Shown here: piece after piece, positions 20,547 to 32,719 of the stretch | Layout of the letters: the number at the start of each line of letters is the position of its first letter | Numbering within the stretch: position 1 is the stretch's first letter | Origin: Armatimonadota bacterium | GTDB lineage: Bacteria; Armatimonadota; UBA5829 | Direction of reading: 5' to 3' | Length of the DNA stretch: 46,195 bases | Assembly (NCBI GenBank): GCA_029907315.1 | Contig: JARYME010000010.1 | Span: forward strand, 1 to 46,195 | Notes under the pieces: model-generated | Seen by the model: only the letters and a program-made list of their open reading frames with translations | The model's database searches: none | Told to the model about the DNA's origin: nothing | Made by a program: the position numbers and the translations under genes

Positions 20547-21953
20547 CTATTCGCCTGAGACCGTGGGCACAATACGAGGCGAAAGCAGTATAACTATTTC
20601 TGTTTGCTCCCTGGTTCTCTTGGCGTGCTTGAAAAGGTTCCCTATTACCGGCAGTTCCGAAAGCACAGGGAGCTTTTGCATATTTACGATCTCGTTATTC
20701 CGAAGCAAGCCACCGATCGCCAGCGTGGAACCATTTTTCACTGAGACAGTGGTACGAGCTTCCCTCGTGCTGATTTGAGGGTAATCGCCCGCTTGTGTGC
20801 GCAAATAACCCGTAACTAGACTCACCTGCGGATACAGGGTCAACACTATGCTATCGTCGCCTGCTACTTTGGGCGCTATCTGGAGGTAAATGCCAACCTT
20901 CTCCTCAGCCTTGTCATATATGGGTGAGCCGATCTGGTTGTAGCCAACCAGCTTAGGGTATAGAATGCGATCGCCTATCAGTATGTCTGCGCACTCACCG
21001 TCCAACACAGAAATGTTCGGCTGAGCAAGAAGATTGGCTTTGCCGTCCTTGATCAAAAGTGAAAGCGCGCCTGTTATGCTCATCCCTTGCTTTGTAAACT
21101 TGCCGAAGCCGATTCCCGAAGTATTTGTTTCCGTAAACGCAATATCGCTCCAAGTCCATTCGATGCCCAGATCCTTGGAAGCCGAAGCACTAATCTCCGT
21201 TACGGCTACATCGATGGCAACCTGCTTGCGCGGAACATCCAGCTTTTCGAGTACACTCTTGGCACTCTCAATTGCCTGTTTGTCAGCTACAAGCACTATC
21301 TTGTTCGATGTATTCCTAGATGCGCCACCCGATTGCGCTGAGCTCGTTGGCCGCTGTTCGCCGGTTAGTCCTCCTGCAGCAGCGTCGAGCTCCGGGGTAG
21401 ACGAACTGGGGCCCTCCGTGCAGGTGATTGAGGGAAACAGCTTCGTAATGACGGACACCAAATCCGCGGGCTTCGCATACCGGCAATCCCAAACGAAAAC
21501 CTCAGTCGGAGGCGTGGGCTCCAGAGAGGACTTATTCTGTTCGGCGCTCTGAGTGTTCTTTCGTGGCACTGTAACCACGTAGGTCCCGTTGACCTTCTCG
21601 TACGTGAAGCCGGTCACGGCTGCCAAGTAATCCAAAATTGCATCAAGCGACAACTGCTTTAAATGAGCGTTGACCTGACCTGAGACCTCAGGACTGACCA
21701 CAATGTTCGCTCCTGACCGGCGCGCCAACAACTCCAGGATCAGGCGGATGTCAGTGCCGCTGGCATTGACGTCGTACAGTCCGGGCTTCTGGGTAGTTGT
21801 AACAGTGCTTGTTGCAGTCGAATCGCCGGACGTGGAAGTTTCGCCCGTACTTGATGCGCAGCCCGGATAGCACCACAATAACAAGCCAACAAACACTATT
21901 ATTGGAAAGGCGTTCCGGACAATATCAAACCGCTTCGCTATTCTAGACAACAT
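20547..21953 (-). CDS. Secretin, PilQ/GspD family
   Basis: This 468-residue protein has a signal peptide (FPIIVFVGLLLWCYPG) and a cysteine at a lipobox-like site (YPGC) that does not fit the usual consensus, so lipidation is unsure. An STN-type N0 domain (YDVNASGTDIRLILELLARR, then VNAHLKQLSLDAILDYL) is followed by an N1-like repeat, with a Ser/Thr/Gly-rich insert near residues 170-205. The C-terminal secretin core includes PRKQVAIDVAVTEI, TREARTTVSVKNG, LAIGGLLRNNE and VPVLSELPVIGNLFKH-like ending, the family signature. It forms the outer-membrane ring for the pilus. It is short compared with typical secretins of 600-700 residues, having fewer N domains. Confidence 0.92.
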   Translation of the reverse strand: MLSRIAKRFDIVRNAFPIIVFVGLLLWCYPGCASSTGETSTSGDSTATSTVTTTQKPGLYDVNASGTDIRLILELLARRSGANIVVSPEVSGQVNAHLKQLSLDAILDYLAAVTGFTYEKVNGTYVVTVPRKNTQSAEQNKSSLEPTPPTEVFVWDCRYAKPADLVSVITKLFPSITCTEGPSSSTPELDAAAGGLTGEQRPTSSAQSGGASRNTSNKIVLVADKQAIESAKSVLEKLDVPRKQVAIDVAVTEISASASKDLGIEWTWSDIAFTETNTSGIGFGKFTKQGMSITGALSLLIKDGKANLLAQPNISVLDGECADILIGDRILYPKLVGYNQIGSPIYDKAEEKVGIYLQIAPKVAGDDSIVLTLYPQVSLVTGYLRTQAGDYPQISTREARTTVSVKNGSTLAIGGLLRNNEIVNMQKLPVLSELPVIGNLFKHAKRTREQTEIVILLSPRIVPTVSGE

Positions 21954-30364: not shown

Positions 30365-31339
30365 CTAGCGCACCGGTTCAACTGCGTATATAGATGCAGC
30401 CACCCCGTAGGCTTTGAAACCCACTCGGTTCAAGCACTCGTATAGCGCATCGTCCGGGGTCGCCTGGTAGACCTGAGCATAGGCGACAGGCTTCCCAAGG
30501 TTACCCCAGGCTATTATCGCCACGCCGTATTCCCTGCAGATTCTCCTCAGCACATCGGCCACCGTAGCTTTCTCGATAGAGAAAGTTTTTACGACCGCGC
30601 GGCTCCGCAGCTTGCTCGGCAGGAAAACGGTTTGATATCTTCCCCACTCACCAATACTCCAAGCAACGTGCACGACACGAACTGAGCCGCTTCGCGGAGC
30701 CGGCACCTTGATTGCCGACGGCTTATCTGCTACTACGAAACCGCTGTACTTCGTCCCGGAGATGTCTATGTCAAACGCAACCGGTTTAAGGCTTTTCGTA
30801 TGCAACTTCAAACAATACACTCCCGACTGGACAACATCTAAGGTCAAAATCAGTCCTTGCCCGTTTCTGTTCTCCGGCGTCCAAGGCATAGGTGCCCGAG
30901 CCGACTCTTGGTCCAATGTGCTTATCGGGGCTTCAGAAGGTTTCTGCGCCAAGAACAGACCGGCTATACCAGTCCGCAGAGGCGGCAATACCTGCAGGCT
31001 TATCACGAACGCTATCAGAACAGCTAAACCAACCGCAAGAGCGCGGGCGGGCACGCGAATAGTAAACACCTTCTGCCAGTCAATACTCCACCATCTGACG
31101 CGCGCCGGCACTTTCCGCCGCTCTACTTCAACCCTAGCCATAACGCTCGCACGAAAACCAGCGGGAGGGTTTACATCAGGCAATCTCTCGAGCATACTGA
31201 TTGCGTATCTAAACCGACTGTACGCACGATCGCACTGCTCACAGTCGGCTAGATGCTTCTCGAGATCTACCTTTCGGCTGCTGTCTATGGAGTTGTCCAG
31301 ATACGCGGAGAAGAGATTTCGAGCTGCCTTGCAGTTCAT
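30365..31339 (-). CDS. Zinc-finger anti-sigma factor with periplasmic STN-like domain
   Basis: From ATG 31339 (GGAG nine bases upstream) the protein has 324 residues. The N-terminus is a zf-HC2 anti-sigma domain with Cys3, His29, Cys33 and Cys36 (HLADCEQC). A membrane helix follows near residues 94-116 (ALAVGLAVLIAFVISL). After a linker, a beta-rich region (about 150-245) leads to residues 251-324, which closely follow the secretin/TonB short N-terminal (STN) pattern: FSIEKATVADVLRRICREYG, then a central strand, then PDDALYECLNRVGFKAY. It should hold the ECF sigma factor encoded just upstream and sense a periplasmic signal. Pseudomonas FecR/PupR regulators have a comparable periplasmic STN subdomain, but with a different cytoplasmic domain. 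Confidence 0.85.
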   Translation of the reverse strand: MNCKAARNLFSAYLDNSIDSSRKVDLEKHLADCEQCDRAYSRFRYAISMLERLPDVNPPAGFRASVMARVEVERRKVPARVRWWSIDWQKVFTIRVPARALAVGLAVLIAFVISLQVLPPLRTGIAGLFLAQKPSEAPISTLDQESARAPMPWTPENRNGQGLILTLDVVQSGVYCLKLHTKSLKPVAFDIDISGTKYSGFVVADKPSAIKVPAPRSGSVRVVHVAWSIGEWGRYQTVFLPSKLRSRAVVKTFSIEKATVADVLRRICREYGVAIIAWGNLGKPVAYAQVYQATPDDALYECLNRVGFKAYGVAASIYAVEPVR

Positions 31340-31447: not shown

Positions 31448-32092
31448 TTATCCAAAAAGTTCCGGCTCAGACTCCAACATTTCTGCAATTGCAAGTCGGG
31501 CTCTGTTTAATCTCGACTTAACTGTGCCGATGGGCAGCTTGAGTATCTCTGCGATTTCCTCGTAACTGCGATGCTCCACGTGGTAGAGCGTAATGATTAT
31601 GCGCTGGTAGTCCGGGAGCGCGTTTATAGCCCTTTGCAAAATGCGCATGCGCTCCTTCGTTTGCACAATCTCGTCCGGGCTGGGAGTGGAATCCTCGATC
31701 TGCCTGGTCACCGAGTTTTCGTCCAGTTCGATCGTATCATCAAGAGAAGTGGTAGGGTGAGATTTGAGCTTCTTTCGCTCGTCCAAGTAGACGTTGGTAA
31801 CTATTCGATAAATCCAAGTGGCAAACTTAGCATCGCCTCTGAACGTCTGGATTGAATGAAATGCTCTAATGAATGCTTCTTGGGCTACGTCACAAGCGTC
31901 GTTGTAGTTACCGGTGACCCTCAACGCATAGTTGAACACGCGTTTTTCGAAGCGTCTCACAATCTCGTCAAAGGCAGCGGTATCACCTGCCTTACAACGC
32001 TCGATGAGAACATCCTCACCAAGCTGTTCGTAATCGCCGAACGAACCAGCTCTCGCTCCCACTGAATTCTCAAGCAAGTTGAAGCTCCTCAC
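31448..32092 (-). CDS. ECF (RpoE-type) RNA polymerase sigma factor
   Basis: The 214-residue protein has sigma region 2 at about residues 38-108 (FNYALRVTGNYNDACDVAQE, then FRGDAKFATWIYRI with the -10-binding helix) and region 4 at about 155-206 (LPDYQRIIITLYHVEH, then YEEIAEILKLPIGTVKSRL helix-turn-helix). There is no region 1 or 3, as in ECF sigma factors of the RpoE/SigW type. The GTG at 32092 gives a head of about 25 residues with little family match, so a later start is possible. It lies 59 bases after DUF4446 and 108 before the anti-sigma start, and the two should form a sigma/anti-sigma pair responding to an envelope signal. Confidence 0.92.
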   Translation of the reverse strand: MRSFNLLENSVGARAGSFGDYEQLGEDVLIERCKAGDTAAFDEIVRRFEKRVFNYALRVTGNYNDACDVAQEAFIRAFHSIQTFRGDAKFATWIYRIVTNVYLDERKKLKSHPTTSLDDTIELDENSVTRQIEDSTPSPDEIVQTKERMRILQRAINALPDYQRIIITLYHVEHRSYEEIAEILKLPIGTVKSRLNRARLAIAEMLESEPELFG

Positions 32093-32151: not shown

Positions 32152-32673
32152 TCACTGTGACATCTTACCGGTGGGTTCGGCTTCCATAGCCTTCGACAAA
32201 GCCGTTTTCTCCTCGTCCGACAGGGCACGATCGCTTGTGCCGTTAATTATTTGCTTAGCATATACCCGCGAGTCTTGGCGTCCGTAGAGACTGCTCAAAG
32301 CAAACCCGTTCCCCTTGCCGTTGAGAAGTACTAGCGAGAAACTCTGTTCGCCGCCAACATCGTCGAAAGCGTCAAACCGAACAATACCCACCTTTTGCAA
32401 GCAAGCGGAGATGTTTTCGGCGTGTTCGGCAAGCCTAGCACTTATGTCGTCCAAGCGCGACTCCAGCATAGTGATTGCTTGCGTCTGCTGCGCAAGACAA
32501 TCCACGATTTCGCCCACGCTGCCGTCCGCGATTTTCGTGTTGTAGCGCCGCAACAACGCGTTGTGTTTGCGCCACAAAGCCAGCAGACACGCCACTAGCA
32601 CTAGGTATAGAATGACCATTGCCAGAATGATGTGGCTGTTGTAGGTCTGAAGTAAACTCAACACTTCTCGCAT
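32152..32673 (-). CDS. DUF4446 family membrane protein
   Basis: The protein (about 173 residues) has one N-terminal membrane helix (ILAMVILYLVLVACLLAL), a coiled coil (QTQAITMLESRLDDISARLAEH pattern in short form: TMLESRLDDI, RLAEHAENI), and the characteristic DUF4446 segment GIVRFDAFDDVGGEQSFSL followed by GNGFALSSLYGR and SRVYAKQI. DUF4446 genes are widespread and often lie near cell-envelope or partition genes; their function is not known. ATG 32673 was chosen; a TTG at 32679 has AAGG at better spacing, so the start is uncertain by two codons. It is the first gene of the sigma-factor operon. Confidence 0.85.
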   Translation of the reverse strand: MREVLSLLQTYNSHIILAMVILYLVLVACLLALWRKHNALLRRYNTKIADGSVGEIVDCLAQQTQAITMLESRLDDISARLAEHAENISACLQKVGIVRFDAFDDVGGEQSFSLVLLNGKGNGFALSSLYGRQDSRVYAKQIINGTSDRALSDEEKTALSKAMEAEPTGKMSQ

Positions 32674-32710
32674 CGGCAAACACTACCTTCGGGTCTAAGG
32701 TTCTCTCTCG

Positions 32711-32719
32711 ATTATACCA
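32711..32719 (-). promoter_or_regulatory. Extended -10 promoter for the DUF4446-sigma operon
   Basis: On the minus strand TGGTATAAT is a perfect extended -10 element (TGnTATAAT). No good -35 is present 16-18 bases upstream, which is usual for extended -10 promoters. Transcription should start near 32704, about 30 bases before the DUF4446 start, in the gap after the UroD-like gene. Confidence 0.6.

Follow-up and report, generated by a model that had tools for sequence, protein, structure and literature searches.

The window, the whole stretch of 46,195 nucleotides that was analyzed, encodes a predicted anti-sigma factor of 324 residues in which an N-terminal zinc finger of the zf-HC2 type is joined, across a single putative membrane helix and a beta-rich region, to a diverged STN/N0 domain at the C-terminus (residues ~251-324), identified by profile comparisons (Table 1). 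With moderate confidence, we regard this protein as a membrane-bound anti-sigma factor directed against the ECF sigma factor whose gene lies just upstream; its docked STN-type domain would shield the periplasmic stalk and release from docking would lead to proteolysis and a free sigma factor. Judged from the sequence comparisons and from a literature search with most subscription papers outside it, the pairing of zf-HC2 with STN appears to be new, class I anti-sigma factors and STN-bearing regulators being already known. The search returned no paper on zf-HC2 joined to STN (domain databases may list the combination), none on anti-sigma factors under the current name of the phylum and none naming DUF4446, the family of the first gene in the unit.

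Table 1. Features of the window considered in this analysis.
Feature	Position	Strand	Basis
Anti-sigma factor gene, 324 aa	30365..31339	-	zf-HC2 E 6.1e-8; orthologs adjoin the same sigma factor
zf-HC2 anti-sigma zinc finger, residues 3-36, HxxxCxxC at 29-36	31232..31333	-	Pfam
Putative membrane helix, about residues 98-118, N-terminus inside	30986..31048	-	Hydropathy and positive-inside charge
Beta-rich, probably periplasmic region, residues about 161-242	30614..30859	-	Strands in a low-confidence model
Predicted STN/N0-type domain, residues about 251-324	30368..30589	-	hhalign E 1.4e-10; PDB profile matches
ECF sigma factor, SigW/RpoE-like	31448..32092	-	Sigma70_r2 E 4.4e-17, Sigma70_r4_2 E 3.4e-17
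DUF4446 membrane-anchored protein, first gene of the unit	32152..32679	-	PF14584 E 1.5e-41; order kept in relatives
TGGTATAAT, extended -10 promoter element, housekeeping type	32711..32719	-	Conserved upstream in 12/15 loci
Secretin with its own STN domain, candidate partner	20547..21953	-	Secretin E 1.9e-39, STN E 3.1e-8

The transcription unit and its anti-sigma domain

The genes for the DUF4446 protein, the ECF sigma factor and the anti-sigma factor follow one another in this order and in one direction. The anti-sigma open reading frame is a real gene, with an overall dN/dS of ~0.12 relative to its closest ortholog (76% identical). The best NCBIfam match of the sigma factor is SigW (E 1.4e-45), but it falls under the cut-off of the SigW model. 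Adjacency of the sigma and anti-sigma genes is kept across the phylum sample described below, in the nearer families mostly with DUF4446 in front of the pair, and all three genes occur together in most loci of families f1-f3 and in f8; the DUF4446 gene is tied to the sigma/anti-sigma pair across much of the sample. The flanking genes beyond the unit, for example PpdK-like (pyruvate-phosphate-dikinase-like) or DinG-like helicase genes, vary among families and were for this reason rejected as sources of a docking partner.

Expression of the unit by the housekeeping sigma factor is suggested by a conserved extended -10 element (TGnTATAAT), which precedes DUF4446 by no more than 150 bp in 12 of 15 loci, compared with 0.006 occurrences expected per 150 bp; both f8 loci are among the three that lack it. 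Autoregulation through an ECF promoter was also considered and rejected, since a scan for simple GAA-type patterns ahead of the operon turned up no consistent site, a result that counts against the mechanism proposed below.

The zinc finger scores 33.1 bits against a curated zf-HC2 cut-off of 22.2 (E 6.1e-8, residues 3-36), and H29, C33 and C36 of its HxxxCxxC motif are invariant in all 19 aligned orthologs. In combination with the adjoining ECF sigma gene, these features are those of a class I zinc anti-sigma factor. The best PDB sequence match of the N-terminal part is the anti-sigma-W factor RsiW (5wuq, E 2.8e-5), which the window protein resembles in its zf-HC2 domain and in its SigW-like partner, and from which it differs in its long periplasmic part with an STN-type domain; RsiW is not known to have such a domain. 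Class I anti-sigma domains are described as binding ECF sigma factors (PMC7406223) and, by analogy with this family, the zf-HC2 domain would bind and hold the sigma factor inside the cell.

Beyond the zinc finger, Pfam gave nothing above cut-off in the 324-residue protein. A single transmembrane-like segment (Kyte-Doolittle 2.64) starts near residue 100, and the 25 residues that precede it include seven K/R and one D/E, a charge distribution that, by the positive-inside rule, would place the N-terminus inside the cell and the residues from about 120 outside.

A diverged STN/N0-type domain

The first-pass annotation had proposed that residues 251-324 follow the pattern of the STN domain in the secretin encoded by the window itself, which is correct at a level that only profiles detect, as BLASTP of the domain against this secretin gave no match (E 8.8). 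For the profile comparisons, full-length relatives were collected in the family, order and class, and of the 19 that were aligned the last part of 18 forms profile A4, L026 being omitted as a near copy of L025. Against an alignment of 31 of 32 STN sequences of the phylum (L082 left out), A4 aligned in hhalign over 75 columns with a probability of 97.1%, an E-value of 1.4e-10 and a score of 57.0, compared with a maximum of 11.7 for 200 shuffles and with internal controls of 0.75 for the zinc-finger region and 6.1 for the middle region. By profile, the domain is thus related to known STN domains over its full length and belongs, by this measure, to the STN/N0 superfamily in the wide sense, and the proposed joining of a zf-HC2 anti-sigma domain to a periplasmic STN-type domain is borne out at both ends (E 6.1e-8 and 1.4e-10). 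The Pfam STN family itself (PF07660), which had been suggested as a check, does not match the window protein alone at E<=10, so the strict Pfam definition fails for the single sequence and the relation stands on the ortholog profile; for a broader set of 30 family-spanning members (A6), 13 match PF07660 at E<=1, the best at 1.8e-8.

Profile searches of PDB sequences and of the genome itself are consistent with this assignment. Searched against PDB sequences, A4 finds PilQ first (E 0.002) and then GspD constructs in a less clean alignment, and its weak matches include EscC, FecA and a gp44-like protein of phage, with unrelated proteins at similar E-values; A6 finds PilQ (2.1e-5), GspD (1.5e-4), HofQ (6.2e-4) and the FecA signaling domain (0.0017). 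Both profiles align with residues 62-132 of the window secretin, where they keep the register of the STN stretch that Pfam assigns (83-128), A4 at E 0.0012 (probability 19%) and A6 at E 1.2e-5 (81%). In the window genome, the best A4 matches after the protein itself are, at E 6e-5, a small STN-bearing protein on contig C109 and, at E 6.7e-4, the secretin on C103. The STN region is under purifying selection, with a dN/dS of 0.08 relative to the closest ortholog. The likeness to secretin N0/STN domains (PilQ, GspD, HofQ) concerns the domain itself, by profile, and its setting differs: here it would end an inner-membrane regulator at the C-terminus, whereas in secretins it lies in the N-terminal part of an outer-membrane ring.

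The only Pfam match at residues 251-324 is a weak one to Gp44-like_2nd (E 0.00025 on the C-terminal fragment), which we take to be a phage tail domain of similar fold. This identity was rejected, since the match reaches 18-21 bits against a cut-off of 27 and is confined to 3 of 19 and 5 of 30 members; the MuSo2 tail protein appears in the PDB profile searches at E 0.30-0.36. The match is set aside as what may be a likeness at the level of the fold.

We consider it very improbable that the domain is instead another small alpha-beta fold (ferredoxin-like, PulM/PilO) that STN profiles match through its hydrophobic pattern. Such a fold would agree with the failure of PF07660 to match the window protein and with a model of the domain, built by AlphaFold2 from two sequences (the window protein and its 76%-identical relative), for which Foldseek and VIA rank PulM/PulL/PilO domains first (Z up to 7.3). 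No STN or secretin chains are among the matches listed, which carries no weight in either direction. Taken by themselves, the PulM/PulL/PilO matches would speak weakly against the STN assignment, and they were not trusted, because the two-sequence model has a pLDDT of only 58 (pTM 0.49) and Z values below 8 are common by chance between unrelated models; the corresponding full-length model (pLDDT 43) was not used. Also against another fold are the top PDB sequence matches, which are the N-terminal domains of PilQ, GspD, HofQ and FecA, and the full-length STN profile matches in 14 families and weaker ones in two more, with f16, f20 and f41 reaching STN through the strong families and no such relation in four internal control families.

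Distribution of the domain across the phylum

Of 291 genomes of the phylum, 148 contain a match to the sigma factor at E<=1e-55. The anti-sigma proteins compared here, 103 from 21 families and mostly one genome per genus, are those whose gene adjoins the sigma gene in loci drawn from these 148 genomes, the 19 of A1 and seven further relatives. Family f13 joined through the further relatives, and its sigma factor, 41-45% identical, may not be an ortholog. L175 was left out of the sample, as were L109 and L153, downstream of whose sigma genes no anti-sigma gene was recognized; L171 and L172 (under 200 residues) were omitted from the hhalign runs and L154 from the sigma tree.

An STN-like domain is present in 17 of the 21 families, or 74 of the 103 proteins as counted from family alignments rather than protein by protein. 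When the last 95 residues were compared with the phylum STN alignment, 14 families matched over the full length with scores of 25-81, f16 (17.4) and f20 (14.0) matched weakly, and f41 (9.3) did not rise above its own shuffles, while f6, f11, f27 and f36 (27 proteins of 225-282 residues) gave no STN match, with scores of 3.5 or less. With the STN-like domain of 13 strong families as the reference, scores are 36-56 for f16, f20, f41 and f38, and 4-9 for the four negative families. The domain is also absent from two f1 proteins, L171 and L172 (139-141 residues). Both belong to genus g5, in the family of the window genome, and combine a sigma factor on a long branch with an anti-sigma factor that lacks nearly all of its periplasmic part. 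As these two proteins and the four families presumably still work, the domain is not essential to the switch, a point against the docking mechanism set out below.

The reverse case is found as well. In 28 of the 103 proteins (21 in f16, three in f17, four in f25), the HxxxCxxC motif is lost and the STN-like domain kept, an observation that counts in favor of the docking mechanism set out below. This number excludes L134 (f20), whose gene carries an in-frame TGA that interrupts the coding sequence (genome G043). On a sigma tree of 96 rows, the product of a short search and with many weak branches, the domain changes state about six times with the sigma/anti-sigma pair kept throughout, which is most simply read as the repeated loss of an old domain.

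Some minor features of these loci were recorded in passing. Besides the in-frame stop in the anti-sigma gene of G043 (C367), two genomes belonging to a single genus (G104:C1 and G110:C1) have in-frame stops within the matched stretch of their sigma ortholog; in G104 this stop lies upstream of a full-length frame. The two f13 loci (L101:9500-11674(+) and L184:9271-11585(-)) encode zf-HC2 anti-sigma factors of about 500-530 residues with a long Pro/Ala-rich linker; no family matches STN more clearly than theirs (98.6%, E 5.5e-15).

Proposed mode of control and candidate partners

The layout of the protein resembles that of PupR, FecR and FoxR as described in the literature, with an N-terminal anti-sigma domain, one membrane helix, a beta-rich juxtamembrane region and a C-terminal STN domain; even the position of the last corresponds, at 250-324 in PupR (PMC7186176) and about 251-324 here. 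The claim of a FecR/PupR-like arrangement with a different cytoplasmic domain was therefore well founded: Pfam finds no cytoplasmic anti-sigma domain of the FecR type and a class I zf-HC2 finger in its place. Of the features that define FecR/PupR regulators, the C-terminal periplasmic STN domain is found, and the FecR-type cytoplasmic domain, PF04773 and an STN-bearing TonB transducer are not. PF04773 has no match in the window genome, and in hhalign the middle region has no detectable relation to a FecR set of 15 of 16 sequences (L201 left out; score 8.7, probability 0.4%), so that, judged by the ancestry of its remaining domains, the protein is no FecR-type regulator. The remark that no TonB receptor lies nearby also holds, as the genome (97% complete) has a single PF00593 match, on contig C141, where no STN match was found. 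Unlike in the PupR/FecR/FoxR systems, the pair does not adjoin a receptor gene, and no STN-bearing TonB receptor was found in the genome. STN-based signaling in the absence of a beta-barrel receptor is described for VreA-VreR-VreI (PUMA3) of Pseudomonas (PMC2729926), which the window system resembles in this respect; in that account VreA is encoded beside the sigma factor and the regulator, whereas no extra STN protein is encoded beside the window pair.

We suggest that the protein works on the principle of the periplasmic half of FecR, PupR and FoxR, coupled to another cytoplasmic domain. As in its family, the zinc finger would hold the sigma factor inside the cell; one helix would cross the membrane, with the beta-rich region and the STN-type domain outside, the latter probably serving as a protein-docking module. 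By docking to a periplasmic partner, or by packing against the beta-rich region, this module would shield the stalk from proteases, and with docking lost the stalk would be exposed to site-1 and site-2 proteolysis, setting the sigma factor free. A precedent for the protective contact is the FoxA receptor, which protects FoxR from proteolysis through a contact that is predicted to involve the STN domains of both (PMC11637429). The window genome encodes a member of the site-2-protease family, the presence of which says little, since one was also found in 14 of 14 control genomes.

A possible but on balance doubtful variant is that the STN-type domain acts within the protein alone, where it would pack against the beta-rich region as a structural cap or dimer contact and would itself sense nothing, and that a signal such as envelope stress or misfolded protein acts on the proteases. 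No conserved partner gene besides DUF4446 and the sigma gene was found in the compared gene neighborhoods, and the domain changes state on the sigma tree without the sigma/anti-sigma pair ever being lost, both of which would suit a cap. Also in its favor is the report that, in PupR, which consists of an anti-sigma domain, a beta subdomain and the STN domain, both periplasmic subdomains are needed for partner binding and the STN subdomain loses stability when the other is missing (PMC7186176). However, docking is the role that is described for STN domains in regulators (PMC11637429), and the similar conservation of the STN and beta regions (81% and 79% identity, respectively, between the window protein and that of G002) fits an interface as well as it fits a cap.

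The first-pass annotation had it that the protein might sense the window secretin or another outer-membrane ring, and the former idea fares poorly in comparison with other genomes. The secretin gene lies 8.4 kb downstream of the anti-sigma gene and the same order is found in G002 (8-9 kb), but a distance of 10 kb or less is confined to these two genomes (G000 and G002), which belong to one genus; in G003, G004, G005, G008, G009, G013 and others, the STN/secretin matches listed sit on other contigs, and in the 13 genomes with the sigma factor and a listed secretin on one contig (best hits only) the nearest pair is ~23 kb apart. The linkage reappears in the distant f13, where the anti-sigma factor is clustered with a secretin and three genes, presumably aroC-like, aroKB-like and PASTA genes (by eye and from their usual order), separate the secretin from the sigma gene. 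Secretins are found in 286 of the 291 genomes, including those of f6, f11, f27 and f36, which lack the STN-like domain.

It is nevertheless conceivable that the domain docks to the N0 domain of an outer-membrane secretin, any of the three in the genome, and so senses the state of that secretin. STN-STN pairing is described for other regulators (PMC11637429), and among 96 genomes a Pfam-strong STN match elsewhere in the genome accompanies 46 of 69 STN-bearing anti-sigma factors compared with 6 of 27 without the domain (Fisher p 1e-4). This covariation was rejected as evidence, because it is gone among independent pairs (median p 1, with few pairs and low power). With linkage distant and variable, secretins nearly everywhere and an association that is not independent of descent, secretin docking is retained as an alternative that we consider clearly unlikely.

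STN domains are known at both ends of TonB-receptor signaling and in secretins. The presence of an STN-type domain on a class I anti-sigma factor, and its retention in most sampled families even where the zinc motif is gone, suggest that docking may be a more general means of controlling anti-sigma factors. A further extension, which we regard as rather improbable, is a receptor-free form of surface signaling across the phylum, in which the STN domain of a class I (often zinc) anti-sigma factor would dock on the N0/STN domain of a secretin or on another periplasmic STN protein and the sigma factor would report if an outer-membrane machine is assembled or at work. STN and anti-sigma domains would in that case have been joined independently at least twice, FecR/PupR being one instance.

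The candidate partners in the window genome, three secretins and two small STN proteins, make docking testable. One protein of 245 residues, on C128 (L040:1297-2034(+)), combines an STN domain with a Gly/Tyr-rich tail and is encoded just before another secretin, and the C109 protein (L052:1375-2319(+)), of 314 residues, has an N-terminal STN-type domain and no recognized secretin channel.
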